Source: Chthoniobacterales bacterium
Lineage (GTDB): Bacteria; Verrucomicrobiota; Verrucomicrobiia; Chthoniobacterales; JAATET01
Direction: 5' to 3'
NCBI GenBank assembly: GCA_036569045.1
Contig: DATCRI010000029.1
Location: 1 to 64,000 of the forward strand
DNA: 64,000 nt
How positions within the stretch are numbered: the stretch's first letter is position 1; each line of letters opens with the position of its first letter. Both the position numbers and the translations under genes were made by a program. This document shows positions 32,876 to 49,043 of this stretch, one piece after another. The notes below the pieces were generated by a model that saw only the letters and a list, made by a program, of their open reading frames with translations, was not told the origin of the DNA and made no database searches.

Positions 32876-33981
32876 GAATTCACTTCCGCTCTCATTCTCG
32901 TCGCCATCCTGCCGCAGACCGCCGGCCAGGTGAAGCGCTCGCTCACCATGCGCCGACCGGCCTCGCCGAACTGGCGGCGCAACTCCGGAGAGCGCAACAG
33001 ACGTTCCAAAAGCCCGGCGAGTTCTTCCGGCGCGCCGAGCAGGCCAGTGACGCCGTCGGCAACGCGTTCCGCATTCCCGCCCACGCGCGTGGCAACGACC
33101 GGCAGTCCGTAGGACGCAGCCTCGGCCAGCACCGACGCGGAGGGATCCATGCGGCTCGGCAGGCAAAAGACATCCGCGGCGCGGTAGCACTCCGCGACAC
33201 GGCCGGGATCCAGCCGGCCAAAAATCTTCACCCCGGGCTCCGTGATCGTCGGAGAACATCCCACGATCCACAGCTCCGCGTCGGGGTTCTTCGCCCGCAC
33301 CGCACGGAATGCGGCGACGAGTTCGGGGCCGCCCTTGCGCTCCCAATCCACCCCGACAAACAGGATCACCCGGCCGCTTCGCTCGCCAGCCTCGAGGCCG
33401 TCGGCACCGGCCACATTGCATCCGGAAAAGACACATTCCACGCGCTCCGAAGGCACGGAATAATCCTCGATCACGGACTGCGCCGCGAACCCGCTCGACA
33501 CGAAATTGCAGTTCGTTCCGGCATAGAGCTCGCGTTCCATTTGCCGCCAGGCCGCGGGCACGGGCAACAAGGGTTTCGGCTCCGGATAGCGGAGATTCGC
33601 GAGATACGTGTGGTCGGTATAAAGAAAATGCGGCACTCCGGGGTGCCGCGCGTCGAAGAGCGATTGCGTCTGGAAGATGAGCGCCGTGTCGGCCGGATCG
33701 ACCCTCGTCCGAACCCATTTGCGCACCCCTTCCAGCACGACGGGAATGCGCGGGAAGAAGTCCCGCGGCGGCTGGCGTTGCCGAAGAATCCGGCCACCGT
33801 AGCGCACTCCGGACTCGGCCGTCGCCCGCAGCCACAGCGCCGGGTTTGCGCCCACGATGTCGCGCTCCACGTCGACTACGGTCCATTCGAGCTCGGAAAA
33901 TTCGGCGCGCAGGCCAGCGAGCACGGCGTCATTGATCAGCGAAAACTCCCCGATCCGGAAGAAGAAGGCGCACCGCTTCAT
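32872..33981 (-). CDS. Glycosyltransferase family 4
   Basis: GT-B glycosyltransferase of 369 residues. The second domain carries ILFVGVDWERKGGPELVAAF, FGRLDPGRVAECYRAADVFC and DPSASVLAEAASYGLPVVAT, the classic GT4 series with the EX7E-like region. ATG 33981 overlaps the stop of the gene before by 4 nt and precedes the first beta strand (CAFFFRIGEFSLIND). A longer start at 34014 is possible but unlikely. Between a sulfotransferase and another GT4. Donor unknown. Confidence 0.9.
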   Translation of the reverse strand: MKRCAFFFRIGEFSLINDAVLAGLRAEFSELEWTVVDVERDIVGANPALWLRATAESGVRYGGRILRQRQPPRDFFPRIPVVLEGVRKWVRTRVDPADTALIFQTQSLFDARHPGVPHFLYTDHTYLANLRYPEPKPLLPVPAAWRQMERELYAGTNCNFVSSGFAAQSVIEDYSVPSERVECVFSGCNVAGADGLEAGERSGRVILFVGVDWERKGGPELVAAFRAVRAKNPDAELWIVGCSPTITEPGVKIFGRLDPGRVAECYRAADVFCLPSRMDPSASVLAEAASYGLPVVATRVGGNAERVADGVTGLLGAPEELAGLLERLLRSPELRRQFGEAGRRMVSERFTWPAVCGRMATRMRAEVNS

Positions 33982-35093
33982 TCCGTTTCGCGATCGCAGA
34001 CTTCCGAGACCCACGCGGCATGCTGCGCGGCCACGACACGGGTTTCGTAGTGGTCGCTCACCGTGTTGCGCGCCGCTCTGCCGGCCTGCCGAAGGGCGGT
34101 CTCGTCGCTGAGGAGATTGTCAAAAGCCTCGAGCCATTGCGCGGAACTTTCCGCGATCGCAATCGCACCTGAAGACGAGCGCTGCGCGGCGTCGATGTAA
34201 CTGGGAACCGGACTCGCGATCGCCGGCAGCTCACACGCCATGCCGAGAGTGATCTTCCACTCGGTGTGCGATTGATTGTAGGGCGTATCCAGGAAGCGTG
34301 GCGACACGATCACCCCGCCGGCGCCATACAGCTCCAGCAGTCCCCGCACGTCGCGAAAGCGATGAAAGGTATGCGGCACGCGTTCGAGGAACCGCTCGAA
34401 GCGCTCTCGCACCTCGGCCGGCCAACGGCTCCGCGCGGTGGCGACATCGTCGGTGACGAGCTGCAAATGGATCCGATCGGCTCGCGCGAGAAACGCCTCC
34501 TCCGCGGCCAGAAACTCGAACAACTTCGCGGCCATCCCGCTCCACCAGACCTGCAGACGTCCCTCGCGAAATGGCTCCCGCTGCACCGTCGTCGGGCACA
34601 GCCCCAGGTCGACATTGTCCGGCACCCATCGGGCCCGGGGATTATAGGCCCGGCAGACTTCGGTGAGATGACGCGACGATCCGATCACGCCATCGGCGAA
34701 AGCCGTCATTGCGATGGCGTCGGCCCGTTGCTGCGATGTCGGGACCATGGCGTCCAGCCGGGCCGCGCCCTCGAATCGCGTGTAATAATCGACGTTTGCC
34801 TCGAAGATGACCTTCGTGCCGGCCGCGCGCAGTCGGCGGGCAAGCGCGAGACAATGCGGTCCCATCGATTTCAGGAACACGACCGCTGCATAGCGGCGCC
34901 AGGGCCGGTAGAGCTCGTAGCGGGGAGCGGACGTGACATCCCGAAGCGCCGCAGCGAGCGCCCGGAAGCGCATGAAACTCATCGGCGATCCCGCGTCGTC
35001 CCATCCGGTAAGGAGCCGATGCGGGGGCATGCCTCGCGCGAGGGAGGCCAGCTCCGGCACGCGGCTGTTCACAATGAAGCCGACGCGCCTCAC
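33978..35093 (-). CDS. Glycosyltransferase (GT4-like)
   Basis: Predicted GT-B enzyme of 371 residues from GTG 35093, which overlaps the preceding stop as GTGA; the frame extends to 35174 through the neighbouring gene and is not used. It starts VRRVGFIVNSRVPELASLARG. The middle has VIFEANVDYYTRFEGAARLD, and the second domain VWWSGMAAKLFEFL and NQSHTEWKITLGMACELPAI, where the Glu and Gly positions resemble the GT4 donor site. Similarity is weaker than for its neighbours. Confidence 0.75.
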   Translation of the reverse strand: MRRVGFIVNSRVPELASLARGMPPHRLLTGWDDAGSPMSFMRFRALAAALRDVTSAPRYELYRPWRRYAAVVFLKSMGPHCLALARRLRAAGTKVIFEANVDYYTRFEGAARLDAMVPTSQQRADAIAMTAFADGVIGSSRHLTEVCRAYNPRARWVPDNVDLGLCPTTVQREPFREGRLQVWWSGMAAKLFEFLAAEEAFLARADRIHLQLVTDDVATARSRWPAEVRERFERFLERVPHTFHRFRDVRGLLELYGAGGVIVSPRFLDTPYNQSHTEWKITLGMACELPAIASPVPSYIDAAQRSSSGAIAIAESSAQWLEAFDNLLSDETALRQAGRAARNTVSDHYETRVVAAQHAAWVSEVCDRETE

Positions 35094-35896
35094 GATCCGG
35101 AAATGGCTGGCGAGAGAAACGCGGCGATCGATTCCGTGACGAGCGGCCCCCGCGCATATTTCTGCTCCTTCCAATCCTCAGCGCGACGTCCCGTGATCGC
35201 CGCGCGAACGCGAGCGACCAGCTTCCCCAGGCTCCAGGCGTGACGATCCATGATGTTCCGCCGGGGGGTGACCTTTCCGGCGTCCCGCGACGAACGATCG
35301 AGAAAGCAAAGATGCAGACATCGAAAATCCGCGTCCGCCCAGGTCGATTGGTCGTGCAGATTCAGGCGCTTCGTCGCATCGAAGCCGGAGCGGAATCGAA
35401 TCTCGCCACCGTGCAGTCGCTCGACGATCTTCCCGTTCCACGCATCGATGGCAGCAAAGTTGTAGAGCTTTGTCATGCTGCGGCACGGCGGAGCCAGATG
35501 GCCGTCGGCGATCACGCCCGCGAAATCGAGCCGCTTCACGTTCAACACATTTCCGAAGACGGCCCACCACGCGTCGAACTCACCAGCCTCGAGACGAGCC
35601 CGCATTCGCCGCAGGCCGGCAGGATCGTAGATTTCGTCGCCGTCGACGCCGAACACCCATGTATTGGTGCCGGCGTAGGCCTGAATCATGCGATGCGACT
35701 CGCCGGAGTCACGGCAGCGACGCACGACCAACTTGCGCCCGAACTCACGGGTCAGCCGCCCAAGAATGACGGTCGTCTCGTCCTGCGACTCGTGGTCGCA
35801 CACAAGAAATTCATCGCAGAAGTCGATGGCATTCCGGATCGCCCATTCGACGAAACGGTCCTCGTCGCGCACGAGCATGATGCCGACAATCTTCAC
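35090..35896 (-). CDS. Glycosyltransferase family 2-like
   Basis: GT-A protein of 268 residues starting at GTG 35896 (GTGA overlap with the preceding gene). It begins KIVGIMLVRDEDRFVEWAI, typical of the GT2 subgroup that includes SunS and LPS glucosyltransferases. It has FLVCDHESQDET and the metal motif GVDGDEIYD. A long C-terminal segment is basic. The very long frame upstream is an artefact of reading through neighbours. Donor unknown. Confidence 0.82.
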   Translation of the reverse strand: MKIVGIMLVRDEDRFVEWAIRNAIDFCDEFLVCDHESQDETTVILGRLTREFGRKLVVRRCRDSGESHRMIQAYAGTNTWVFGVDGDEIYDPAGLRRMRARLEAGEFDAWWAVFGNVLNVKRLDFAGVIADGHLAPPCRSMTKLYNFAAIDAWNGKIVERLHGGEIRFRSGFDATKRLNLHDQSTWADADFRCLHLCFLDRSSRDAGKVTPRRNIMDRHAWSLGKLVARVRAAITGRRAEDWKEQKYARGPLVTESIAAFLSPAISGS

Positions 35897-36768
35897 GCAA
35901 ACTTCAGCGGCTCGAGGATCTCGATCCAATCTTTGCGGCCAACGATCGAGAGGAAGAACAACGCATTGGGATTGATGACGCCCTTGCGCATGAGCCCGCT
36001 CCAGATCAGCGGATACGGGCCGTGGTAGTAGTGATGGACACCGAGAATGCGGTCGTCGATCGCGGCGCGCGCCTTGTCTCCGGCGAGCGTCCGCACGGCA
36101 TAGCGGTAGAGGTCCGTCGTGCCCTTGAAGCGATTCAGCAGGTCGGGATACCTCATCGCGGCGTGGGAGCTCCCTTCGATGCGATAACAATGCGCGGTAA
36201 GTTCCGGCGGAAGTCCGGCATCCTTCGAACCGCCCCGACGCTCGAACGCCCATGGCGTGTGTTCGGTCTCCGGCAGCCATGCAATCAACCGGTCGAGCAG
36301 CTCGCGCAGGGCGTCGACCCTCCAGAGAGCGGGATGCAGCGGGTATTTCCAGAGGACCTCGGGGTCGCAACGATCGACCTCCCAATCCCGCCAGCGGACG
36401 ATATTTCCCTGCAACGCGCGCCCCTGGCCATAGCCGGACAACGAAATGCTTACCGCGCCGAGTTCCTTCATCATCGCCGGCAGGGTCTCGTTGAGATGCT
36501 GCGCGTGGCAGCGGCCAAGCGGAGGATGGTCTTCGAGGATCAGGTAGACCTGCGAAAAGCCGTCCGCAATGAGGTCGTCGCACGCGGACCGGGTCACCTT
36601 CATCCAGTCGCGCGGATCGTCGCGCAGCGGCAAGGCCATGGGATCGCCCCCGAGACCGCACAGGCGCAGCGGCGGTGCGTCTTTCCAGAACTCGCGCAGA
36701 CGTTCCCGCGTGAATTCCATCAGCGGGCGATACTTCTCGCAGGTCGAAATGAGGATGCAGGTATTCAC
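35893..36768 (-). CDS. Uncharacterised cluster protein, possibly GT-A-like
   Basis: Not recognised with confidence. The 291-residue soluble protein begins with a Rossmann-like strand, MNTCILISTCEKYRPLMEFT, and has VYLILEDHPPLGRCH, which recalls the LEDD metal motif of several GT-A enzymes, followed by an SLSGYGQGR segment. There are no membrane segments and no signal peptide. It overlaps both neighbours by 4 nt, both glycosyltransferases, so it is firmly part of the glycan operon. A nucleotide-sugar-binding role is inference from position and this one motif. Confidence 0.6.
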   Translation of the reverse strand: MNTCILISTCEKYRPLMEFTRERLREFWKDAPPLRLCGLGGDPMALPLRDDPRDWMKVTRSACDDLIADGFSQVYLILEDHPPLGRCHAQHLNETLPAMMKELGAVSISLSGYGQGRALQGNIVRWRDWEVDRCDPEVLWKYPLHPALWRVDALRELLDRLIAWLPETEHTPWAFERRGGSKDAGLPPELTAHCYRIEGSSHAAMRYPDLLNRFKGTTDLYRYAVRTLAGDKARAAIDDRILGVHHYYHGPYPLIWSGLMRKGVINPNALFFLSIVGRKDWIEILEPLKFA

Positions 36769-37745
36769 AGGCGTCCGGACTCGACGACGAGCCGTTGAAT
36801 CGTGTCCGCAAAATCGAGGACCATGCGCTCTCCCGAAGGCAATCGCTCGAGCAACCGGTGCCGGAGATCGCCCAGCCGGTCGACCGCCTTGCGCACCGCG
36901 CCCGCCACATCGTCGCGAAAACCGATGCCGTAGCGCTCACCGGCCTCGACGATCCCGCCGCCATCTTCGTGATACACGAGCGGCAGCCCGCATTGCGCAC
37001 CCTCGACATGATGCATGCCGCACGGCTCCCACCGCGATGCGGTGAGGTAAAGATGGCACTCCCGCAACTTTGCGGCGAGCGGGGCCCCGACCATCGGACC
37101 GAATGTCTCCGTCGCCTTCCAGGTGATCTCTTTCGGCCAGCGCCCAATCACGCGGAACGCGACGCCGGGCAGTTCACCGGCCGCGATCAACTCGTCGAGC
37201 CGCTGATAAATGTCGTAGCCCTTCAGCCAGTTGTCGGACCAATGGTGGGTCACGATACGCACCGTCTCACCCGGCCCCGGGAGGTGATTGCCGATCGGGT
37301 GATACACGCGGGAGTCGGCCCCGTTGTAGATGATCTCGTGAGGCAGGGCAGGATCATACCACCGCTCGACGAAGTATTCCTTGAGCCACTGCGAGATGAA
37401 AACGGTGTGGTCCGCGAGAGCATTCGTGCGGCGCAGCAAATCGTCGATATCCGCCGTGCCCTTGCGTTGATCGCACTCGTTGATGCGATGCAAAATCGGC
37501 ACCTGCGGGTTCGCCTCGCGGAATCGCTCGAGCTCCGGAAGGCCGAACTTCTTCGCGGGATGGTCCCTCCGCGGGTCGATCACCAGGACGACATCCGGGT
37601 CGGCCCGCAGGTCGAAGACAACGCGCCAGCCACGACGCCACATGCAGTTCGAGAGCTGCGAAACGAAGTGGCCCGCGCCACCCCAGGAGGCTCGCGGAGG
37701 CACGAGACTGATGGCCAGCGTGGGTTTGGGTTTGGAAAAAAACAT
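36765..37745 (-). CDS. Glycosyltransferase family 4
   Basis: GT-B glycosyltransferase of 326 residues. ATG 37745 is chosen because it directly precedes TLAISLVPPRASWGGAGHF, the usual first strand plus Gly-rich loop; the longer frame to 37997 lies over the neighbouring gene. The C-terminal domain has RIVTHHWSDNWLKGYDIYQ, LYLTASRWEPCGMHHVEGAQCG with the donor-site Glu, and a final helix. The stop overlaps the next start by 4 nt. Donor unknown. Confidence 0.86.
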   Translation of the reverse strand: MFFSKPKPTLAISLVPPRASWGGAGHFVSQLSNCMWRRGWRVVFDLRADPDVVLVIDPRRDHPAKKFGLPELERFREANPQVPILHRINECDQRKGTADIDDLLRRTNALADHTVFISQWLKEYFVERWYDPALPHEIIYNGADSRVYHPIGNHLPGPGETVRIVTHHWSDNWLKGYDIYQRLDELIAAGELPGVAFRVIGRWPKEITWKATETFGPMVGAPLAAKLRECHLYLTASRWEPCGMHHVEGAQCGLPLVYHEDGGGIVEAGERYGIGFRDDVAGAVRKAVDRLGDLRHRLLERLPSGERMVLDFADTIQRLVVESGRL

Positions 37746-37753
37746 CAAAAAAA

Positions 37754-38824
37754 TCAGGGAAGGAAAAGAGCGCCCAATCGGCGGGAAAAATCGTCGATCC
37801 GACCATGCCGGCAGGCGGCCTCGCGAGCCGAGGCTCCAACCTGCGCTCGAAGCGCTGGATCGTCCAGCAGGCGTTGCAATGTTGTCCGGAGAGCGTCGGA
37901 CGAACCGGGGTCCACCAGAAAAAGATCGCGCCCGTCGACAAAGTCCTCCCCGGTCCACAATCCACGCGTGCGGGACAGAATCACCGGGCGACCGCACGCC
38001 ATGGCCTGCAGCGCGACGCTTTGTCCGGAAGGCTGGATCGCATCCTCGAGCGGAACGACGACCACAAACGCGCGCCGATACAACTCGCGCAACTCCTCGT
38101 CAGTGACCGCCGGCGCGTGCCAGGTGCCGCGCAGATGCTCGACGTGGGCCGGCAGGGGGGGCAGCGGTCTCCCGGTCACGATCTTAACGGGAACGGAAAG
38201 ATCCTTCACCGCCGCGACGAGCGTCGCGTAATCGCGCCGGCCGTCATTACCCACCGCCAGCACGAACTCCGGCTCGCGCGGGACGGGCGTCCAAAAATTC
38301 ACATCCACGCCGAACGCATTCGCGTGCACCCGCTCCGGCGCGACCCCGCACTGCCGGATCGTCTCGGCCCGCTCGGCATCGGCAAACAGAACGACCTCCT
38401 GGTCGCGCATTACCCGCTGCGTCGCCTGCTGACGCGCCCCGCAGAGCGGAAAATTCACCAGACCACAGTGGATTCCGACGATCCGAGCTCGGAGAAAGCC
38501 GCGCAGCTTCCAGAGCGCGAGGGCGTTTGCGTGCGAGGTCGAAGCGGCAACCACGACATCCACGGCCTTCAATCGCCCCAGCACGCGGCCGATCGCGACG
38601 ACATGCTCGCCTCGTGTGCGCACCGGGGTGCGCGCATCGAAAAGCCGGTTGTAGATCCCCGCGAGGACCGAGCGGCGCGGCTCCGGAGCGTCGATGCAGA
38701 CGACATCGTGGCCTGCTCGCGCGAACTCCACGGCCCCGTAAAAAAAATCGGACGGCACCCGACCTTCGAGCGCCGCCGGCCACCGGGCCTCGCGCCCACC
38801 CGCATAAACAAAGGCGATCTTCAC
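37754..38824 (-). CDS. Glycosyltransferase family 4
   Basis: GT-B glycosyltransferase of 356 residues beginning at GTG 38824 (VKIAFVYAGG), which overlaps the upstream stop as GTGA. In the second domain EFVLAVGNDGRRDYATLVAA, VVVPLEDAIQPSGQSVALQA and MACGRPVILSRTRGLW are typical of GT4. The N-terminal domain has AASTSHANALALWKLRG and IVGIHCGLVNFPLCG. The frame to 39448 crosses the neighbouring gene and is rejected. Donor unknown. Confidence 0.88.
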   Translation of the reverse strand: MKIAFVYAGGREARWPAALEGRVPSDFFYGAVEFARAGHDVVCIDAPEPRRSVLAGIYNRLFDARTPVRTRGEHVVAIGRVLGRLKAVDVVVAASTSHANALALWKLRGFLRARIVGIHCGLVNFPLCGARQQATQRVMRDQEVVLFADAERAETIRQCGVAPERVHANAFGVDVNFWTPVPREPEFVLAVGNDGRRDYATLVAAVKDLSVPVKIVTGRPLPPLPAHVEHLRGTWHAPAVTDEELRELYRRAFVVVVPLEDAIQPSGQSVALQAMACGRPVILSRTRGLWTGEDFVDGRDLFLVDPGSSDALRTTLQRLLDDPALRAQVGASAREAACRHGRIDDFSRRLGALFLP

Positions 38825-39651
38825 CGGCCGGCGCTGGAAAAAATTCGCCGCTTCACGAACCGCAGCACCTGCTCGGCGAGCACGAAGGGAGAGACCGCCG
38901 CGTGGATCAATCCCCCCACCCAACGGCCCGGCGCGGAGAGAATGCCGAAATGCCGGGCGGTGAGCTGCAATGCGCTCGGATAAAACATGCGGATGCCATG
39001 GCTCGCGTTCACCCATCGCTCGAGTTCCTCCATCTTCGGGCCGCGCCCGTGAATGATGCGCACGCTGCACCGTCCGACCGCGGCAGGCATGACGGTGCGG
39101 AGATTGTATTCGGGCGGGAGCACGGAAAACGTGAGCGGCGAGCGATAGAGGGCTTCTCGAAAAGCGGGCTGGTCGCTGTCCATCTTTCCCGTCTCGGCGA
39201 CCTCCTTCTCGTAGAGCCGCAGCCAGTCCTCGAAGAGCGCATTCATCTCCGGCGAGCGGCGGTAGGCCAGCACTCCGGTATTCAGCTCCGGGAAGCAGTT
39301 TGGCGTCACGAACGGGCGATCGTGGCGATAGGGCGCGTGGGCGAGCGCGAGATCGACGCGGTCGAGGATCTCGAAGAGATCGGGCACCGGGGCGCAGAGA
39401 TACGTGTCGGTATCGAGGAAGATCGTGCGCTCGAACGGCGTGTCGCAAAGGGGGGCGATCTTGTCGATGAAGGAATGGCGCGGGTTCGCGATCGGTCGCA
39501 CTTCATCGAACACATCGGCCGGCAGATCCGCCTGATCCGTGTAGACGATGATCGGAACGCCGGGCATGTGCCGCCGCACGGAACGCGCCGACACGAGCAT
39601 TTCGCCGACGTGTCGCCGCCCCGTCGCGATGTAAAGAACCCCTGTTTGCAT
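38821..39651 (-). CDS. GT8-like glycosyltransferase
   Basis: A 276-residue protein with a GT-A-like nucleotide-sugar fold: YIATGRRHVGEMLVSARSVR, IIVYTDQADLPADVF, and the metal-binding DxD in TIFLDTDTYLCAPV. FPELNTGVLAYRRSP and DQPAFREALY are patterns shared with GT8/GT77-type transferases. A hydrophobic stretch near the C-terminus (GGLIHAAVSPFVLAEQVLRF) may attach it to the membrane. ATG 39651 lies 6 nt after the stop of the GT2 gene upstream. The donor is unknown. Confidence 0.82.
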   Translation of the reverse strand: MQTGVLYIATGRRHVGEMLVSARSVRRHMPGVPIIVYTDQADLPADVFDEVRPIANPRHSFIDKIAPLCDTPFERTIFLDTDTYLCAPVPDLFEILDRVDLALAHAPYRHDRPFVTPNCFPELNTGVLAYRRSPEMNALFEDWLRLYEKEVAETGKMDSDQPAFREALYRSPLTFSVLPPEYNLRTVMPAAVGRCSVRIIHGRGPKMEELERWVNASHGIRMFYPSALQLTARHFGILSAPGRWVGGLIHAAVSPFVLAEQVLRFVKRRIFSSAGR

Positions 39652-39657
39652 CCGGCG

Positions 39658-40506
39658 TTATGAAGAGCGCGACTCGAACTGCCGCGGCCAGCCCTGCACC
39701 ATCACGGGAGTGGAGCGGAAGACGATTCGCCGCAAGACTTCGTCGGTAACCTTCTCCGCAAGGCGGGAATCGAGCCGTCCGACAGCCGTGCGGATGCGAT
39801 AGGACAGGAAGTTGAAATCGAGCGGGCCGTTGTGATGCCGCCCAATCTCGGCGATCTCCCGCATGCGCTTCCAGCCGCCGGTCGAGGTCTTCGTGTCGTC
39901 GTAGTAACGGATCTCGGCAAGCGTCTCCTCGATGGCAACGACGTCGTCGCACTTCGCCGCGAGGCGAATGAGGAGGTCCCAGTCCATCGCATAGTGGAGA
40001 TCCTCGTTGAGGCCACCGATCTCGAGATACAGGTCGCGACGAAAGAACATGGCCGGCTGCACAACGCGGTAGGCAGTCCTGAGATGGCGCCGATTGAAGG
40101 GGCGAAACGGCACGGTGTAGATCTCGCGGCCGTCGCGGTCCATCTTCGCCCCACGTCCAAAGACGACGCCGGCCCGGGGGTTGTCGCGAAAGGTCTCGCC
40201 GACCGTCAGCAAGGCGCCCGGCCGAAAGCGGTCATCGGAATTCAGCCAGCAGGTGATCTCGCCAGTTCCAAGGCGAACGCCCTTGTTGATGCCGTCGCTC
40301 TGGCCGCGGTCCTTCTCGCGAAGGATGCGCATGGGCAGGCGGTCCGCCCAGCGCGCGAGAATCTCGGGCGTCGCGTCGGTCGACATGGCGTCGACGACGA
40401 TGTGCTCGAGATTCGGGTAGGCCTGCGCCTCGATGCTGGCAAGCGTCTCCTCGATGAACTCCGCCTGATTGTAGGTCGGCGTGATGACGGAAATTTTGGG
40501 AAGCAT
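39658..40506 (-). CDS. Glycosyltransferase family 2
   Basis: GT-A enzyme of 282 residues with the classic GT2 start SVITPTYNQAEFIEETLASI, the nucleotide motif VVDAMSTDATPEIL, EKDRGQSDGINKG and the metal motif WLNSDDRF. MDWDLLIRLA in the acceptor part matches the ED-type base region. ATG 40506 is the clear start. It sits between the GT8-like gene and the small membrane/coiled-coil gene. Donor unknown. Confidence 0.93.
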   Translation of the reverse strand: MLPKISVITPTYNQAEFIEETLASIEAQAYPNLEHIVVDAMSTDATPEILARWADRLPMRILREKDRGQSDGINKGVRLGTGEITCWLNSDDRFRPGALLTVGETFRDNPRAGVVFGRGAKMDRDGREIYTVPFRPFNRRHLRTAYRVVQPAMFFRRDLYLEIGGLNEDLHYAMDWDLLIRLAAKCDDVVAIEETLAEIRYYDDTKTSTGGWKRMREIAEIGRHHNGPLDFNFLSYRIRTAVGRLDSRLAEKVTDEVLRRIVFRSTPVMVQGWPRQFESRSS

Positions 40507-40519
40507 GGATGGTCCCTCG

Positions 40520-40807
40520 CTAGAAACCGGGCTCCTCGCCGGGGTCGTCGGATTGTTCGCGAATCGCTCCGGTCGCCAGGCACTTCATGACCTTGGCGAG
40601 ATTCTGTTCAGCCTGTCGGGCGGCGTTCGTCTCGCGCTCGAGCGCAGTCTCGAGCTGAGCGATCCTGCCGATGAGGGAGTCGTGCAGCGCACGGGTGCGG
40701 GTCGCCTGTGCCGCGAAACGCTGATCGGCGCGCCGGAAGACAAACCACACCGCCGCGGCCGTCAGTCCGGCATTGGCGAGGAACACGAGAAGGATGATCC
40801 AGATCAT
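40520..40807 (-). CDS. Small membrane/coiled-coil protein (copy 1 of module)
   Basis: A 95-residue protein of unknown function. Residues ~2-26 are one membrane helix (IWIILLVFLANAGLTAAAVW), followed by ~60 residues of predicted cytoplasmic or periplasmic coiled coil rich in Ala, Arg, Gln and Glu, and an acidic end. ATG 40807 overlaps the stop of the sulfotransferase-like gene before it by 4 nt. The same gene pair is repeated directly upstream (41694-42982). It may anchor or oligomerise its partner; this is inferred from the pairing. Confidence 0.75.
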   Translation of the reverse strand: MIWIILLVFLANAGLTAAAVWFVFRRADQRFAAQATRTRALHDSLIGRIAQLETALERETNAARQAEQNLAKVMKCLATGAIREQSDDPGEEPGF

Positions 40808-41697
40808 GACGCCGACGCCTCCGCATGGGTTTTCCAGCGCGCCCGGAATCCCGCAATCTCTTCGTCCGAATAAAAATGCCGGGCCACGCGCGAGCTGTAA
40901 ATTGCGTCGAGCTGGCGGGCGTCGATTCGCAATTTCTCGCGAAAGCTCTGGTAGAGGTCCGAGTAGGCCTTCGTGGAGCCGTCGTTCGAGCGCTCGCGCT
41001 CGAGCGAGAAGGATCGATCGAAACCGGCAGCGAACTCCGAACCAGCAAACCATTTCTCGAGCGCCGGCAGGAAGACTCGCGGCAGGTCTTCGAGACGAAG
41101 CAGCATCAGTCGCGTCGTTCCACGCTGGAAGAACTGGTAACCCTGTTCACGATCGAACGGCCGGTCGAAGACATCGATGCCGAAAACGCCGCGCAGCTCG
41201 CGATCGAACCACCGATCGTAGAGGCCGCCGCGCCACCGGGTCTTGAAAAGCTCGATCAACTCGCCGACGAGGAGGTCGTTCTCGGCGGGCGTGACAGGCG
41301 CATCCGAGGCGACCGAAGGCTTCAGCACGCGCTCACAGATCCGGCGCCCCTCGGCGGAGAGGCGGAAGATCCATTTGCGGTCCAGATTCTGGAAGAAGGC
41401 GGAGACGTTCCGGCCCATCGGCTCGCGCACGAGCGAGATCATCCACCAGTCGCGAACGAGTCCGCCGGCGCCGAGAAACTTGCGCAGTTCCACGCTGCTG
41501 ACGAGATGATCCGAGAGCTTGGTGCGCGGCGAATCGGGATGATCCATCCATGCGACGAGGGATTTCAGCAGCGCGACCTCGTCGAAAACGTGGGTCTGGT
41601 GCACCCGGCGATCGGGATACATGCGCTGGAGCACATGGGCAACGGTGGTCGAGCCCACCTTGCCGACCTGATGGACGCAAAGAATCGAGGAACTCAC
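40804..41697 (-). CDS. Sulfotransferase-like / putative capsule-synthesis protein (copy 1)
   Basis: A 297-residue protein with a P-loop-like start CVHQVGKVGSTTVAHVL and a later LVREPMGRNVSAFFQNL, which correspond to the 5'- and 3'-phosphate loops of PAPS-dependent sulfotransferases. The pattern fits the family first named from capsule clusters (NKWYS-type). FGIDVFDRPFD and the C-terminal RVARHFYSDEEI are shared with the protein at 42068-42982, to which it is clearly related. It overlaps both neighbours by 4 nt. A role in sulfating the exported glycan is inferred. Confidence 0.78.
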   Translation of the reverse strand: MSSSILCVHQVGKVGSTTVAHVLQRMYPDRRVHQTHVFDEVALLKSLVAWMDHPDSPRTKLSDHLVSSVELRKFLGAGGLVRDWWMISLVREPMGRNVSAFFQNLDRKWIFRLSAEGRRICERVLKPSVASDAPVTPAENDLLVGELIELFKTRWRGGLYDRWFDRELRGVFGIDVFDRPFDREQGYQFFQRGTTRLMLLRLEDLPRVFLPALEKWFAGSEFAAGFDRSFSLERERSNDGSTKAYSDLYQSFREKLRIDARQLDAIYSSRVARHFYSDEEIAGFRARWKTHAEASAS

Positions 41698-42071
41698 GGC
41701 TCGGGCGTCTTCAATTCGTGGATCCGGCGATCGACCTCCTGAAACCGTTCCAGATTCTGGATCGAGGTCTGCGTCAATCCCCGGGCGACCTGCGTGAGGG
41801 CGTGGGCCGCGCGCCTTTGCTTTTCAAGCTCCTTCCCCTGTCGACGGAGATCCTCCCTCGCCTCGAGCAGACGGCCGTGGGCGCGATCCAATCGCTCGAT
41901 GCGCGCGCGCAAGCCGTCCTCGCCATTGAGCTGGCCGTAGATCCGGCGTTCGCTCTCGCGAAGAAGCTTCGTGAAGTGCGCCCGCAGGAACAGCCCAAAG
42001 ACCACCAGCATCAACGCGGAGATCACCAGGCTCCCGCCAAGCGACAGAAGGAGAATCGTCGAGGGACTCAT
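41694..42071 (-). CDS. Small membrane/coiled-coil protein (copy 2 of module)
   Basis: A 125-residue protein of unknown function: one membrane helix at ~5-28 (ILLLSLGGSLVISALMLVVF) and a long coiled coil rich in Arg, Glu and Leu (RIERLDRAHGRLLEARED). The frame continues upstream to 42125, but ATG 42071 gives the 4-nt overlap with the upstream sulfotransferase-like gene. It matches the 95-residue gene at 40520-40807 in layout but hardly in sequence, so shared role is inferred from position and architecture. Confidence 0.75.
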   Translation of the reverse strand: MSPSTILLLSLGGSLVISALMLVVFGLFLRAHFTKLLRESERRIYGQLNGEDGLRARIERLDRAHGRLLEAREDLRRQGKELEKQRRAAHALTQVARGLTQTSIQNLERFQEVDRRIHELKTPEP

Positions 42072-42982
42072 GGAACAGAACCGGCCGGGGCGCCAATCAC
42101 CGAAGCCTCCCCGGCTCCGGACCACTTGCGGGAAAACTCCGCAATCTCCGAGTCGGTATAGAAATGACGCACGCCGGGGGATTGATAGATGGCTTCGAGA
42201 TCGCGAGGTTCGAGCGCAAAAGCGTCGATGAACCCGCGGTAGAGGCGCGCGTAGGACTTGGTCGTTCCGTCATTCGCGCGCTCGCGCTCGAAGGCCTCGC
42301 CATGGGTCGGTGTGACCGAGAAACCCGACCCCTCGAGCCACTCGGCCATTCCTCGGCGGAAGACTCCGCGCAGGTCTTCGAGACGAAAGACGCCGAGACG
42401 CACGCGCCCGGCCTGATAGATCCGGTAACCGGCCTCGGTCGGGAACGGCTCCGCAAAGACGTCGATTCCGAAGACGCTTCGCACCTCGCGGTCGAACCAC
42501 GCGCGATATTTCTCGCCGTGGTAGCGGGTCTTGAAAAGCGCGAGGAGGTCCTGGATCAGCGCCGCCATTTCCTCGTCATCGACCTCGGCGGCAGAGGCGT
42601 TCGTGCCAAGCATTCGCTCGCAGACGCCCCGCGTCCCCGCTGGCAGCTCGTGCATCCAGTGCCAGTTGAGGTTCTGGAAAAACGCCGAGATGTTGCGAGC
42701 GACCGGTTCGCGCACAGCGCTGAAAAGATACCAGTTTACCGGCAAGCCGGGATGCATGAGGCGCCGGCGCAGCTCGATACTGCTGACGATGTGATCGTGC
42801 AGCTTCACGTCCGGCGCGAGCGGATGATCGAGCCAGGCCTGCATCATCGCCAGCACGCCGGCTTCGCTGAGCACGTGCGTCTGGTAGATCGTCTCGCCGG
42901 GCAGGATTTGCTCGAGGCTGCGGACAAGGCTGGTGGACCCGACCTTGCCGACCTGATGGACGCAGAAGAGATTCGGGATCAT
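42068..42982 (-). CDS. Sulfotransferase-like / putative capsule-synthesis protein (copy 2)
   Basis: A 304-residue paralogue of the protein at 40804-41697. It shares CVHQVGKVGSTSLVRSLEQI, AVREPVARNISAFFQNLNW, FGIDVFAEPFP and the C-terminal YQSPGVRHFYTDSEIAEF. The loops again look like PAPS-binding 5'- and 3'-phosphate motifs. ATG 42982 overlaps the stop of the large fusion gene upstream by 4 nt; the longer frame to 43162 lies inside that gene. The substrates of the two copies may differ, for example two sugars or two positions. Confidence 0.78.
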   Translation of the reverse strand: MIPNLFCVHQVGKVGSTSLVRSLEQILPGETIYQTHVLSEAGVLAMMQAWLDHPLAPDVKLHDHIVSSIELRRRLMHPGLPVNWYLFSAVREPVARNISAFFQNLNWHWMHELPAGTRGVCERMLGTNASAAEVDDEEMAALIQDLLALFKTRYHGEKYRAWFDREVRSVFGIDVFAEPFPTEAGYRIYQAGRVRLGVFRLEDLRGVFRRGMAEWLEGSGFSVTPTHGEAFERERANDGTTKSYARLYRGFIDAFALEPRDLEAIYQSPGVRHFYTDSEIAEFSRKWSGAGEASVIGAPAGSVP

Positions 42983-44991
42983 TGACCGGGGGAACCAGGC
43001 GCGGCCGCAACCCGCGGAAAGGGCCGCAGGCTCGGAATGTGATCGTGCCGTGGAACGAGCGACCGCGACTTCATGCTGAGGTTGCTGAAATGCACCGCGC
43101 CGGCGGATTCCCAGCCTGGGCGACCGAACTCCGCACAACCGGCCAGCGATTCGAACATCCATGTGTTCTTCGTGAGAATCATCATGTCGGAAACGTGCAG
43201 CTTGCCCTGCAACCGGTCATCCGGCGCCACGGCATAGGCTGCGAAAAAGCGCGCAACGCGTTCGTATTCCGCCGCGGTGCCGCTCACGAGGCACGGCACG
43301 CTGCGTTCGTAGAGCGCCAGCCGGCCGGCAGGACGCGGGGTGAACCCGTAGTTCACGACATCGTAGTCGCACATGAAGCCGCCGCCCGCCTGGGCAACGG
43401 CGAGCCAGCGCACGTAGCAATAATAGTCGAGCTTGCGGCGGTTGATGCTCGGCAGATCGCGGTAGGCCAGAAGCATGCGTGAGACTTCCTGATCGACGCG
43501 CACCGAGGATTCATCGAGCACGATGGCCTCCCATCCATTGGCCTCCCAGCTTTCTTGCCAGAGCTTCACCAGCGCGGCCTCGTGCTCGGGAATCTTTCCA
43601 TCGATCGGCGCGCAGAATGTGTAAACGACGGGCCGGTCCCCTCGCTTCACCTCGACCGGCCGGATGAAATCGCGTCGGACGAGACCGGGCACGTAGGACG
43701 TCGTGATGTTGCGGAAGATCTTTTCCGCCAGTTCCCCTTCCCGCATGAGCAGCTCGAGCGTTTCGCAATGCTGGTCGTAGTAATCGGTGTAGCTGATGTT
43801 GAAAAAGCCGGGGTGCGCTTCCTTCGCGGCATCCATTTTGTCCGCGATCTGCGAGGGCGCGTGATGGCTCCAGAAATACGTCTGGCCCTTGTCCGAGCGA
43901 CCGTCACATCCGCCGATGCAGATTTCGCGGGCGAGCGTCGCCGCAACCGGCAGCATGAGCATCGTGAGGATGTTACCGGTCTGGTTGACCTGGTAATTCT
44001 CGAGCAGATCGAAATTGAAGCTGCCGAGCTTGTGGATCGGCACGCCAATGATGCGCGGGAGGACGTCCTCCGGAAAATGGGCGCAGTAATACGGGTAGTG
44101 CGTGATCGGCACCACAGCGTAGAGCGGATATTTCCGCATCGCATCGAGAAGATTCCGCCGGAACTCCGCCGCGTAGCCGGAGCAGCCGGCGTGAAAAACG
44201 GGATCGCCGCAGCACACGATCGAGGGCCGAATCCTGCCCATCAATCGCTCGTTGCGAATGAGGCTGTTCGATACGACCCGCACGCCGTCGAGCAGCTCCG
44301 CGTCGGCGACTTCCTCGAGATTCGGGCCGGTGCCGAAGACGTAGGCGCGCCGGCCGCCGCCGATCTTCGCGGCCATGTCGGCGAACTTCTGGCGACATTC
44401 GGCGATCACCGCGCTCCGGCAGGCGCCGAGCAGCCGCGGCACATCCAGCCACGTCGAGGCCTCGCGGGCATAGGTCTGCCGATCGACGTTGAAAAACGTG
44501 CGTCCCCCGCGGCGAAAGACGCCGTAGGAAGTCAGCCGGCTCGGCGGATCCCACAACTTGGAGTCCCACACAAGCACGATGTCCGCTTCGGCAACGAGCG
44601 CGCGTTCGTCGTCGATCCCCTCGACTTCGCGGAAGGTGAAAAGATTGCGCAACCGCGTCCGGCAGGCGGCGATCTCCTCGTCCATGTAGGCGGGCAGGCC
44701 CTCCTGAGCACCCATCCCCGGCTTCACGGGAATCGTCACGCTCCGGAGCTTGTCCTTCACGGGGCTGAGATACCAGCTCGCGCGATAAACGAGATCGGCC
44801 AGCACCTCGGGATCCGAAACGGTGGGCAGAAAGGTTACGCCGACCGCGCGTTTGGCGCCAAACGCGGCGATGGCCGGCCCCATCACGCCGCGCCGGGGCG
44901 GAAAGGAAATCAGGCGTTCGCCGAGCGAGAAGACGCGGGCCAGCTTCGGCAAATAATTCCGGGTGCCGGGCGATGCGGAGGAGGAGGGCAT
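42979..44991 (-). CDS. MptE/Maf-like domain fused to a GT-A glycosyltransferase
   Basis: A 670-residue protein of two parts. Residues ~205-420 resemble the MptE/Maf-like (DUF115) domain found in flagellin-glycosylation proteins: AYVFGTGPNLEEVADAEL, PSIVCCGDPVFHAG, GGCDGRSDKGQTYFWSHHAP and TDYYDQHCETL. Residues ~455-600 look like a GT-A transferase of the DXD sugar-transferase type (KLDYYCYVRWLAVAQAGGGF, MCDYDVVNYGF). The N-terminal ~200 residues are of unknown fold. It overlaps the sulfotransferase-like gene downstream (4 nt) and lies 13 nt below the second MptE-like fusion. Modifying the same glycan from a shared recognition domain is a guess. Confidence 0.72.
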   Translation of the reverse strand: MPSSSASPGTRNYLPKLARVFSLGERLISFPPRRGVMGPAIAAFGAKRAVGVTFLPTVSDPEVLADLVYRASWYLSPVKDKLRSVTIPVKPGMGAQEGLPAYMDEEIAACRTRLRNLFTFREVEGIDDERALVAEADIVLVWDSKLWDPPSRLTSYGVFRRGGRTFFNVDRQTYAREASTWLDVPRLLGACRSAVIAECRQKFADMAAKIGGGRRAYVFGTGPNLEEVADAELLDGVRVVSNSLIRNERLMGRIRPSIVCCGDPVFHAGCSGYAAEFRRNLLDAMRKYPLYAVVPITHYPYYCAHFPEDVLPRIIGVPIHKLGSFNFDLLENYQVNQTGNILTMLMLPVAATLAREICIGGCDGRSDKGQTYFWSHHAPSQIADKMDAAKEAHPGFFNISYTDYYDQHCETLELLMREGELAEKIFRNITTSYVPGLVRRDFIRPVEVKRGDRPVVYTFCAPIDGKIPEHEAALVKLWQESWEANGWEAIVLDESSVRVDQEVSRMLLAYRDLPSINRRKLDYYCYVRWLAVAQAGGGFMCDYDVVNYGFTPRPAGRLALYERSVPCLVSGTAAEYERVARFFAAYAVAPDDRLQGKLHVSDMMILTKNTWMFESLAGCAEFGRPGWESAGAVHFSNLSMKSRSLVPRHDHIPSLRPFPRVAAAPGSPGQ

Positions 44992-45004
44992 ATCCGAACG
45001 AAAG

Positions 45005-48000
45005 TTAAGGTTGCGTCTTCGAAACGATCAGCCGGCCCTGGAGCGACCGTTCGACCTGACGACTCTCCCGCCAAAAGAGCATCAAACGCCGCCGCACGTC
45101 CAGACGAAGGATGGCGGCGAACAACGCGCGCAGATGAGTCGGGGAAAGCGCCGTGACGAGAGTCTCGGTGCGGAACCACGCGAAAGTCTTCGCGGTTTTC
45201 CCGCCACCGGAGAGGCCCGCATACCACGCCTTGCGAAGGTAGAGCACGGGATCCTTGATGGTTCGTGGACACTGGATCGCCGCGGGATCGAGCGCCAGCA
45301 GCACGCCAGGCTGGGTCGCCGGGATCTCTCCGGGGGCGGCAACCTCGCGCAGACCGCGATAATCGGGCGGCCATTGCTCGCCGAGGAACGGATAGCGCGC
45401 ACTCCAAAGGAACCGCACCGGCTTGTCGGCGAGCAGCCCCTTTGCCGTCGCCCAATTGTCCGCGGGGTTCGATCCCTCGCCTGCGAAAACCAGGGCCGCC
45501 ACCGTGGTGAGCGGGAATGCAGACGGGATCGCCCCACCGGCGCCGCGCAGGACGATCGTCCGCGTCTCGACTGAATACCGCGCGGAGAGATCGGCCACGG
45601 AAGGATTCACCAGAACGTCCCAGCCGCGCGCGACGAATTGCTTGAGCAACCGGGGTGCGATCTCGCCGAAGACCACGGCCACCTTGGTGGATGCCGCCGT
45701 CGCGAAGAACTGCGCCGCGACTTCGCAGTCGTTCAAGGCCATCCGCTGGAGTCGCGAATACGGGCCGAGCAGCATCCCGTCGAAGATTCCCGTCGCGCGG
45801 GGCAGTCGAGCCACAAGGTCCTGAAATTTTTTGCGAATGTCGTCGACGTTCAACTCGGCGAGAGCCCGCGCGCGGGCGGCGAGCGCTTTTTCGCGGAAGA
45901 GATCCGGCTGGCGGCTCAACTCGAGCAACGATTCGCGGAGCCGGGTTTCGTCGGGCGTATCGACAAGCACGGCGGCGCCAAGATCGGCGGCGCGGCGCAC
46001 CGTCGCGATGCCTGGCGGACCAAAGACGATCAACGGCACGCCCGACGCGAGGCACTCGGGCAGCTTGTTGGCCATCGAGTATTGCGTGTAGGTGCGCGTG
46101 CGATCGTCGAAATTGTAGGCGATAAGCAGGGCGCCGGCGCTCCCGAGCAGTTTCGGGTAATCGGCCCACTCGACCGACGGCAGCACGGTCACCGCCGGCA
46201 GATCGCGGAAAGTTTCCTGCGCAATCTTGATGGCGGCCGGCAGCGCGTAGATCTCGAAGCGAATCGCGATCTCCCTGCTGAGCGCACTGACGACGCGGGC
46301 AAACTGCCCGACGCTGGCCAGCGTCATGTCGTCGGTGAGGCCGCCACTGTAGCGAATCACGAGCGGCTCGTCGGCGCGGCGAGAGGCGGGCGGTTCCGGC
46401 CAGTCCGCGGGGTCGATGCCGTTTGCGATTGGAACGAACTCGCAGCCGTAGCGCTCGCGATAGGCATCCGCCATTGCGTCGGAAATGCCGAGACGCACCG
46501 CAGAGGCGGTGAAAAGCTCACGCAGCGCCGGATCGATGCGGGCGAACGTGGCGGGATTCGTCTCTCGCAGGCGCTCGGGCCAGTCGTCCATCACATGCGT
46601 CACGACCGGCACGCCGAGGCGTTTCACGAGCTTCATCCCGAGCTCGAAAAACTCCGGGGGGCTGTCGGTCGGGCGGAAGTAGATCAGCTCCGGCTCGAAG
46701 TCCAGACACTCGCGAAACACCTCGTCGCTCGTGAATTTCGCCTCCCGGAGCGGCGGGTGGTCCGCCAAGGTATGCAGGCGAAAATACGTCGCATCGCGCG
46801 TGCTGAGCGGGCGAATCTGCAGGATCTTTTCCGGCGCCCAGCGCTTGAAAAGCGTCGCCTTGAGCTGGCCGGTCGCGTTGCGGGCGCCAAGCTCGGTGAA
46901 GTCGATGATGAGCGTGCGCGGGAGGTTTGCCGGGCGGCGCTCCAGCGCGGGAATGAACGACGGCGTGACCGTTCCGTATTCGCGCCCGGTCTTCTCGCCC
47001 TCGGAGATCAGTTCATCGAGCAGCCGGCAGTGGTCGAGGTAATAGTCGTTGTAATCGATTGCGAAAAACCCCGGATGCACGCCCTGGATGTTCTCCATCT
47101 GGTCGTTGATCTGGGTGCGCTTGTTGTGCGTCCAGAAATACGCGTCCTGGTTGAGCGGGCGTCCGTCGCAACCGAGCACGTAGATCTTGCGAGCCACCGT
47201 CGAGGCCAGCGGCAGCATGAGGTAGGTGAGAATGTTCGCGGTGGTGAAGACGCGAAACTCCGCCTCGAGATCGAGGTTGAAACCGCTCGGCTTGTCCGAA
47301 GGAATGCCGATCGTGCGGGAGCGCAGCTCGGGCATGGCGTCGGTGATCAGCCCGTAATACTTCTGCGGCACGATGATCGTGTAATCGTGGCGACCGCAGG
47401 ATTCCCGCAGCTTCGCGCGGAAGGCCGCGGCGTATTTCGACGGGCCGTAGTGGAAGATCGGATCGGCAAAGACAAGGAAACGCGGGCGCACCCATTCCAT
47501 CAGCTCCTCGTCGAGAATCGCGCTGTTGCAGACGACCGAGATCGCCCCCTCGAAATTCGTTTCCTTGAACGCCGCCAGCGAAGGCCCGGTCGCGAGGCAA
47601 TAGGCCGTCTCCGCGCGCCCGACTTCCGCGAGGCAGGCCGCGAACCGCGCTCGGCATTGCTCCGATTCCGCGTCGCGATCGGCGCGCAGCAGGAAGTTGA
47701 CCTCGATCCAGTTGCCAAATTCCTGCCGGGTGCGGGCGGCGTCCGCCGCAAAGACGCGCCGGCCGCGAATCGCCTCCGCCCAGGCTTCCGCGGAAATTCC
47801 GGGAATCTCCGGCGGATCCTTCACGAGGAGGATCACGTCGCTCTCGGCGACCCGTTCCAAAATGTCTGCAGCGGTCGGCGCAGCGACAATGCGCACGCGC
47901 GGTCGCAGGGCCGGGAAGATCGCCGCAATCGCGGGATCCATCGATTCCGGCACGCGCCATTCGACCGAGCCGAGGGCGGCATCCGTCGTGAAAATGACGA

Positions 48001-48109
48001 CATCGTGGAAAGACGCCAGGCCGATGGCCCAGGCCATGCGGGCGAGCACATCCTGCAGCTCGACCTCGCTCTCGATGAGCGGGACAATGGTGATACGACG
48101 TCCGCTCAT
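45005..48109 (-). CDS. MptE/Maf-like domain fused to a GT-B glycosyltransferase
   Basis: A 1034-residue protein. Residues ~160-380 are homologous to the MptE/Maf-like part of the next gene: CLATGPSLAAFKETNF, FLVFADPIFHYG, LGCDGRPLNQDAYFWTHN, DYNDYYLDHCRLL. Residues ~440-780 resemble a GT4 GT-B transferase (RYSGGLTDDMTLASVGQFAR, NKLPECLASGVPLIVFGPP). The last ~240 residues were not recognised. There are no membrane segments. 61 nt separate its start from the Wzm permease gene upstream. ATG 48109 is the first start. Confidence 0.75.
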   Translation of the reverse strand: MSGRRITIVPLIESEVELQDVLARMAWAIGLASFHDVVIFTTDAALGSVEWRVPESMDPAIAAIFPALRPRVRIVAAPTAADILERVAESDVILLVKDPPEIPGISAEAWAEAIRGRRVFAADAARTRQEFGNWIEVNFLLRADRDAESEQCRARFAACLAEVGRAETAYCLATGPSLAAFKETNFEGAISVVCNSAILDEELMEWVRPRFLVFADPIFHYGPSKYAAAFRAKLRESCGRHDYTIIVPQKYYGLITDAMPELRSRTIGIPSDKPSGFNLDLEAEFRVFTTANILTYLMLPLASTVARKIYVLGCDGRPLNQDAYFWTHNKRTQINDQMENIQGVHPGFFAIDYNDYYLDHCRLLDELISEGEKTGREYGTVTPSFIPALERRPANLPRTLIIDFTELGARNATGQLKATLFKRWAPEKILQIRPLSTRDATYFRLHTLADHPPLREAKFTSDEVFRECLDFEPELIYFRPTDSPPEFFELGMKLVKRLGVPVVTHVMDDWPERLRETNPATFARIDPALRELFTASAVRLGISDAMADAYRERYGCEFVPIANGIDPADWPEPPASRRADEPLVIRYSGGLTDDMTLASVGQFARVVSALSREIAIRFEIYALPAAIKIAQETFRDLPAVTVLPSVEWADYPKLLGSAGALLIAYNFDDRTRTYTQYSMANKLPECLASGVPLIVFGPPGIATVRRAADLGAAVLVDTPDETRLRESLLELSRQPDLFREKALAARARALAELNVDDIRKKFQDLVARLPRATGIFDGMLLGPYSRLQRMALNDCEVAAQFFATAASTKVAVVFGEIAPRLLKQFVARGWDVLVNPSVADLSARYSVETRTIVLRGAGGAIPSAFPLTTVAALVFAGEGSNPADNWATAKGLLADKPVRFLWSARYPFLGEQWPPDYRGLREVAAPGEIPATQPGVLLALDPAAIQCPRTIKDPVLYLRKAWYAGLSGGGKTAKTFAWFRTETLVTALSPTHLRALFAAILRLDVRRRLMLFWRESRQVERSLQGRLIVSKTQP

Positions 48110-48170: not shown

Positions 48171-49043
48171 CTACGAACTCCAGCGCTCAATCACGAGGGG
48201 CATGGCGGCACGCACGAGGATCAGCCCAAAGAACAGGAGCACAAGCGCCAGTCCGAGCGAGCCGAAAAACTGGGGAAGCACGGTCAGATGCTCCCCGGAC
48301 ACCAGCTGACGGGTCGTTGTGACAAGGTAAGTCATGGGGTTGATGCGACTGGCGAGCGCGTAAAAGCCGCCGGGTGGAAGGGCCTTCGCGGCAAAGACGG
48401 CCGGAGTGACGACGAGCCAGCCTTTCTCGATAATCGGGATCGCCAGCGCGATGTCACGGTAGAGCAGGCCAACCGGCGTGAGAAACAGGCCGATCGCGGT
48501 GCCGAACATCGCCACGCCGACCAGCGCCGGCAGGCCGAGGAGCGTCGTCGCCTTGAACGGCAGGCCGAACCACAGGAAGGCGAAGGTGATCAGCAGCAAT
48601 TGGATGACCATCATGATGCCCAGCTTCACGAGGCTCGAGAGAATGATGGCCTCCGGCGGCACGACAACCTTCGTGACGACGCTGCGATAGCTTCCGATCA
48701 CCTGGAGCGGCCCGCTCACCGCCGCAGCGAAGACCTGCCAGATGGACATGCCGATGAGGGTGAACGCGATCGTGGGAATTTTCGATTCACCGAAATTGAT
48801 GAGGTCGTTCTGCTGCGCCACGGAGAGACCGACGGCCACCACGATGGGTGGAGCGATCATCCAGAACAATCCGAGCAGCGACTGCCGATACTGGGCGCGC
48901 AAGTCGCGCACCGCGAGGATGAGGGCCAGCTGCCGGCTGCCGACAGCATCCCGCCACATGTCGCCCAGCAGTTTCCACGGTTTCAGCAAGGCGCTATCCG
49001 CGCCGTAAACGTGGGTTTCGTAATGTCCGCTCTTAAGACTCAT
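48171..49043 (-). CDS. wzm: ABC transporter permease for polysaccharide export (Wzm-like)
   Basis: Inner-membrane subunit that, with a Wzt ATPase, exports lipid-linked O-antigen or capsule. From ATG 49043 it has 290 residues and about six membrane helices with the ABC-2 motifs RDLRAQYRQSLLGLFWMIA at the amphipathic start and LYRDIALAIP in the cytoplasmic loop. A frame to 49082 adds 13 residues that are not conserved. Its ATPase partner is not adjacent but is the first gene of the cluster, 13.6 kb upstream. Confidence 0.93.
   Translation of the reverse strand: MSLKSGHYETHVYGADSALLKPWKLLGDMWRDAVGSRQLALILAVRDLRAQYRQSLLGLFWMIAPPIVVAVGLSVAQQNDLINFGESKIPTIAFTLIGMSIWQVFAAAVSGPLQVIGSYRSVVTKVVVPPEAIILSSLVKLGIMMVIQLLLITFAFLWFGLPFKATTLLGLPALVGVAMFGTAIGLFLTPVGLLYRDIALAIPIIEKGWLVVTPAVFAAKALPPGGFYALASRINPMTYLVTTTRQLVSGEHLTVLPQFFGSLGLALVLLFFGLILVRAAMPLVIERWSS

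Follow-up and report, generated by a model that had tools for sequence, protein, structure and literature searches.

A duplicated pairing of NKWYS sulfotransferase-like genes with small membrane-helix genes: a candidate accessory sulfation cassette in a Chthoniobacterales surface-glycan cluster

How bacterial enzymes that sulfate glycans reach the lipid-linked chain is poorly known. The locus described here raises this question directly: what does a small gene for one membrane helix and a long helix do behind a sulfotransferase-like gene, twice in succession? In the window (the whole stretch of 64,000 nucleotides analysed), four genes on the minus strand are transcribed in the order ST_A, TM_A, ST_B, TM_B:

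42068-42982, minus strand: ST_A, first NKWYS (PF10364) sulfotransferase-like enzyme (304 aa; Pfam E 6.4e-15)
41694-42071, minus strand: TM_A, small membrane-helix/long-helix protein (125 aa; ATG at 42071; homologue in the sister species G001)
40804-41697, minus strand: ST_B, second NKWYS sulfotransferase-like enzyme (297 aa, GTG start; PF10364 E 3.4e-21)
40520-40807, minus strand: TM_B, small membrane-helix/helical protein (95 aa; weak homology to the small protein of G001)

Overlaps of 4 nt join ST_A to TM_A, TM_A to ST_B and ST_B to TM_B, and the start of ST_A overlaps the upstream gene at 42979-44991 in the same way. This confirmed the two successive pairs of sulfotransferase-like and small overlapping genes reported in the preliminary description; all four genes are real and correctly placed. 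The overlap itself, which had been taken as a cue to a special pair, was not distinctive and was rejected as such a sign, given that 11 of the 17 junctions of the surrounding cluster (28841 to 48109) have one. Base composition gave no sign of a foreign origin of the cassette (GC3 0.78-0.80 vs about 0.76-0.84 in its neighbours).

The four genes lie in a surface-glycan cluster that runs from 28841 to the window end and holds many GT1/GT2/GT4-type glycosyltransferases, methyltransferases, hexapeptide acyltransferases, a second kind of sulfotransferase, an ABC-2 permease and an ABC ATPase. The cluster core is common to the window genome and the genomes G001 and G002 of the same genus, with the same gene order and with most flanking proteins 68-86% identical. 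We define the slot as the interval between homologues of the genes at 42979-44991 and 39658-40506. The core genes that enter the argument are the following:

42979-44991, minus strand: 670-aa protein, upstream flank and fixed left edge of the slot (G001 and G002 have homologues with 76-80% identity immediately to the left of it)
39658-40506, minus strand: GT2 glycosyltransferase, downstream flank and fixed right edge of the slot (PF00535 E 2.4e-25; 83-86% identical in G001 and G002)
45005-48109, minus strand: two-part protein with a C-terminal GT4/GT1-like glycosyltransferase (homologues in G001 and G002)
32060-32875, minus strand: core sulfotransferase PF00685 (in all three congeners, 75.7-79.7% identity in G001/G002; without a membrane-helix/long-helix partner)
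48171-48959, minus strand: ABC-2 type permease of the glycan exporter (PF01061, 36.5 bits vs a cut-off of 26.9)
62657-63997, minus strand: ABC ATPase of the glycan exporter, 446 aa (PF00005 E 3.6e-23; 63% identical homologue in the G002 cluster)

Since none of the three congeners lacks the PF00685 enzyme, sulfation of the glycan is probable even where NKWYS cassettes are missing. The 670-aa protein of the left edge had no Pfam or NCBIfam match. It is a paralogue of the N-terminal part of the 45005-48109 protein (35% identity over 390 aa), and both carry a TGPxL motif recalling MptE-like/Maf proteins. The name 'MptE-like' was rejected for the two, as only this motif was alike and there was neither a Pfam match nor significant similarity to an annotated MptE-like protein; they may represent a glycosyltransferase-associated family not yet described. 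Reading of ORFs pointed to a further variable site of the cluster in G002, where an extra FkbM-like gene (L057 10976-11604) stands between the GT2 gene and the next glycosyltransferase gene of the core.

Both enzymes of the cassettes exceed the curated cut-off of the PF10364 (NKWYS) profile (55.8 bits for ST_A and 76.1 bits for ST_B vs 25.1) and stand in a surface-polysaccharide context. Pfam names the family 'putative capsular polysaccharide synthesis protein', with no mention of sulfotransferase, and its model spans the C-terminal half only, the N-terminal PAPS motifs falling outside. In an alignment of 14 relatives, the N-terminal half has QxGKVGS(T/S) after the first strand and later VR(D/E)PxxRNxSAFFQN. 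V14, R91, P93 and S99 are invariant in all 14 rows, the Lys of QxGKVGS is replaced by R in two distant rows, and both PAPS-site motifs occur in NKWYS members from several phyla. In its AlphaFold model (pLDDT 87.8, pTM 0.86), ST_B folds into a compact globular domain and has no membrane helix.

The polysaccharide sulfotransferase class is defined by a strand-loop-helix with Lys/Arg and a strand-turn-helix with Ser in a PAPS fold (PMC11625862). In the ST_B model, the first motif gives a PSB loop, containing Gly and Lys/Arg, that connects strand 4-9 to helix 16-26, and the second (VREPxxRNxS) forms a PB strand-turn-helix with Ser99 from strand 83-90 and helix 93-103. ST_A and ST_B are very likely PAPS-dependent sulfotransferases, given these PAPS-binding motifs and the confident model with its matching layout. 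More broadly, the motifs favour reading PF10364 as a PAPS sulfotransferase family. Searching the literature by family name (NKWYS) or accession (PF10364) gave no paper.

Compared with known PAPS polysaccharide sulfotransferases (PF00685, PF03567, PF13469; heparan sulfate 3-O-sulfotransferases, TPST2), the two enzymes share the PSB Lys/Gly loop, the PB-helix Ser and both structural elements, but differ in that their matches to PF03567 are only sub-threshold (E 0.03-0.12) and their fold matches weak. The top five hits of the ST_B model in a PDB fold search were all PAPS sulfotransferases, at best with E 0.033, probability 0.72 and TM-score 0.33. The best PDB sequence matches, heparan sulfate 3-O-sulfotransferases, were marginal (E 0.12). 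In a viral-library fold search, three uncharacterised giant-virus proteins matched well (E 1.8e-10 to 1.8e-8) and several annotated sulfotransferases matched more weakly. The weakness of the fold and sequence matches to solved sulfotransferases, together with a family name that says only putative capsular polysaccharide synthesis, would also suit a different transferase that shares the P-loop-like fold and works on capsule sugars. We consider this very unlikely: both PAPS-site motifs are conserved, sulfotransferases head the PDB folds, the genome encodes an APS kinase, and the locus of one relative, a Methylosinus plasmid on which NKWYS and GT2 domains are joined in one protein, also has an adenylyl-sulfate kinase gene.

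TM_A and TM_B each consist of a single N-terminal hydrophobic helix followed by a charged, helix-prone stretch. Scanning both strands of the 64 kb for ORFs of 60-190 aa in which a charged, Pro/Gly-poor stretch follows a single N-terminal hydrophobic helix, with thresholds chosen with TM_A and TM_B in view, returned exactly these two, and both sit directly after an NKWYS gene. AlphaFold predicted TM_A as one uninterrupted helix over residues 3-121 (mean pLDDT 86, with only 3 sequences in the alignment). The long helix measures about 92 residues in TM_A and, judged by eye, about 60 in TM_B, the layout being kept. A home-made heptad score was matched by 7 of 400 shuffles for TM_B, 14 of 400 for the G001 homologue and 32 of 400 for TM_A. 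The periodicity thus beats most shuffles and is not strong, which gives moderate support to a coiled coil and makes 'long helix' a safer term than the 'coiled coil' of the preliminary description; the single membrane helix claimed there was borne out. None of the small proteins had an NCBIfam match, and their sub-threshold Pfam matches (YscO, SieB, DUF4391, Striatin) were judged to be noise from helix composition.

In all seven membrane-helix/long-helix (TM/helix) proteins found, including those of the congeners, the residues ahead of the membrane helix bear no positive charge, and the 15 residues from its end bear 4-6. By the positive-inside rule, this pattern predicts an N-out/C-in orientation with the long helix in the cytoplasm. 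The earlier suggestion of an enzyme and a membrane scaffold fits this predicted anatomy, in which a soluble PAPS-type enzyme would meet a helix on the cytoplasmic side.

To place the pairing in its genus, we compared the slot across congeners. A search of 147 related genomes with ST_B found it carried only by genomes of the same genus. The slot is empty in G002, with about 10 nt between stop and start; it holds one enzyme followed by one small TM/helix gene with a 4-nt overlap in G001 (L009 7645-8819), and two such pairs in the window genome. Across the three congeners (0, 1 and 2 copies), enzyme and small gene never occur at the slot one without the other. Genome G003 lacked NKWYS genes, and none of the small proteins matched it convincingly.

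ST_A and ST_B share 48% identity across 296 residues and form sister branches in the enzyme tree (support 89/84); the enzyme of the G001 cassette joins next (80/74) and the enzymes of another slot, described below, lie outside. Direct similarity between TM_A and TM_B was not significant (Smith-Waterman score 32 vs 28 +- 5 for shuffles), and direct homology was rejected on that ground. However, the small protein of G001 is clearly homologous to TM_A (115 vs 45 +- 9) and weakly to TM_B (58 vs 34 +- 7). Since it resembles both, TM_A and TM_B are probably diverged homologues. The observation that the small partners keep the layout and not the sequence holds for the layout and for the direct comparison, yet the G001 protein links the two. 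Given the slot contents, the enzyme tree and this link, enzyme and small gene most likely arrived together and were later copied together, with faster divergence of the small gene. Tandem duplication, as first proposed, is supported for the enzymes by their sister branches and, through G001, indirectly for the small genes. The G001 enzyme (L009 7971-8819) ends 10-15 residues before its relatives, with similarity continuing past the stop (two TGA inside the match), and its C-terminus looks cut back where the TM gene meets it.

Joint gain and duplication would also result if enzyme and small gene were functionally unlinked, acquired and copied as one DNA segment and simply kept. The few events, the prevalence of overlapping genes in the cluster and the divergence of TM_A and TM_B almost past recognition are in line with this. 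Nevertheless, neither small gene has lost its open reading frame and both have gene-like hexamer scores, though ST_A and ST_B now share only 48% identity; the layout persists, as does the charge pattern. We regard the absence of a functional link as quite unlikely.

A second slot in G001 and G002 has another NKWYS gene directly before the homologue of the 45005-48109 gene, and two TM/helix genes directly after it, for proteins of about 100 and 261 aa:

L009 11725-12834 (G001/G002 second slot): TM/helix genes after the glycosyltransferase-type gene
L010 4986-6126 (G001/G002 second slot): TM/helix genes after the glycosyltransferase-type gene

The 261-aa protein extends into an additional C-terminal domain that matched nothing in Pfam. 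An hhalign probability of 41% makes it doubtful that the small proteins of this slot are homologues of TM_A/TM_B. In the window genome, all three second-slot genes (the NKWYS gene and both TM/helix genes) are missing, though the 45005-48109 gene is present.

In this slot, the TM/helix genes follow a glycosyltransferase-type gene and not the sulfotransferase, which would agree with small proteins that serve neighbouring glycosyltransferases in general membrane recruitment and adjoin a sulfotransferase only since cassettes insert there. However, all three congeners have the glycosyltransferase-type gene of each slot, with or without TM/helix genes, and TM/helix genes occur only where the slot has a sulfotransferase. 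Of the six slot-genomes (two slots in three species), four have sulfotransferase and TM/helix genes and two have neither, a count from three related species of one genus and hence from few independent events. Because the second-slot glycosyltransferase-type gene is present in all three congeners, the pattern is suggestive of TM/helix genes tracking the sulfotransferase rather than the glycosyltransferase-type gene, and we see the service to glycosyltransferases as rather unlikely.

Beyond the genus, the pairing was absent. None of 14 loci (eight from a phylum search, two from a class search, three from a contig search and the annotated Thalassovita record, with two weak class-search matches, G365 and G705, left out) has a TM/helix gene adjoining the NKWYS gene, the adjoining genes being read from ORFs since the quick gene caller is poor on short foreign loci. 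A 98-aa gene before the Thalassovita NKWYS gene was rejected as a partner, as it has no membrane helix. Within the window genome itself, a third, weak match to the enzyme alignment (G000:C46:6281-6631; L048, L054; E 7e-8) has no TM/helix gene nearby.

These loci led us to reject a general association of NKWYS enzymes with TM/helix genes, and suggest that the enzyme does not generally need such a partner. The module looks like a genus-level arrangement and not a property of the enzyme family, whose checked members outside the genus differ from ST_A and ST_B in this respect. The preliminary description had made its two-component module depend on such neighbours in other genomes: within the genus, the G001 pair and the joint gain and loss at one slot in three congeners speak for it, and outside, at the 14 loci, the enzyme stands unpartnered. 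Its interpretation is partly borne out, with stronger grounds than it had itself given. The pairing has so far been observed in one genus only. The enzyme family is known, and to our knowledge its pairing with a small TM/helix gene has not been described.

Gene structure, enzyme family, PAPS-site motifs, cluster context and joint gain and loss within the genus are backed by the results above. Our main reading, to which we give even odds (a probability of about 0.5), is a duplicated accessory sulfation cassette in an ABC-transporter-type surface-glycan cluster, whose small protein docks a cytosolic sulfotransferase. PAPS is made in the cytosol. Each unit would comprise a soluble cytosolic PAPS-dependent NKWYS sulfotransferase and a small inner-membrane protein, with its N-terminal helix in the membrane and its long helix reaching into the cytoplasm. 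The small protein would probably dock, and perhaps space, its enzyme at the membrane and alongside the lipid-linked glycan, which would be sulfated before ABC export; the two diverged copies may sulfate two different positions or two different acceptors. The cytoplasmic side of the long helix, the docking, the stoichiometry and the acceptor are features that we infer.

A more speculative and, in our estimate, improbable extension is that the genus uses interchangeable membrane-helix partners, one per enzyme, so that helix length would set the place of sulfate along the lipid-linked glycan and copy number (0, 1 or 2) would write the sulfation pattern of the exported polymer. In any case, 0, 1 and 2 cassettes at one slot are a natural experiment in which glycan sulfation can be compared across species with a common cluster core.

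The cassette can finally be compared with known membrane scaffolds and anchors. When O antigens are assembled by the ABC-dependent route, scaffold and ruler are provided by a membrane-associated coiled-coil protein, with catalytic modules variably spread over separate proteins (PMC11231755). The cassette shares with WbdD/WbdA and the coiled-coil terminator-polymerase complexes of Klebsiella O4/O7/O12 (PMC11231755, PMC3482155) an ABC-transporter cluster, here with an ABC-2 permease and an ABC ATPase, and a long membrane-associated helix beside catalytic modules on several proteins. It differs in having a sulfotransferase where those systems have a kinase/methyltransferase or a Kdo-transferase. 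In WbdD, moreover, one polypeptide carries both terminator and coiled coil, and a C-terminal amphipathic helix serves as its membrane part (PMC11231755), whereas enzyme and helix are separate genes here and the hydrophobic helix is N-terminal and predicted to span the membrane. As it lacks these two defining features, we do not file the cassette as WbdD type, although by analogy it may work like coiled-coil O-antigen scaffolds, conceivably in a ruler or terminator role.

In a rival reading, the small protein would be a detachable coiled-coil ruler whose length sets the distance between enzyme and membrane, sulfation capping or patterning the chain as WbdD-type terminators do. The O-antigen precedent for separate catalytic modules, the differing lengths of the two long helices within a kept layout and the exporter genes point this way. 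Against it stand the two structural differences from WbdD and the only moderate coiled-coil propensity, and chain termination by sulfation is itself an analogy with WbdD; we find this reading unlikely.

Docking of the enzyme by its small partner, our preferred reading, can be set beside two further systems. Wzz-type polysaccharide co-polymerases have two membrane helices around a periplasmic coiled region; the small proteins here have one N-terminal segment, and TM_A is modelled as one helix. In Golgi type II sulfotransferases, an N-terminal membrane helix, a stem and a catalytic unit form the working enzyme. Although split over two genes, with the enzyme gene first and the enzyme expected to be cytoplasmic and not lumenal, the cassette would bring together the same three parts: membrane helix, stem and catalytic unit.
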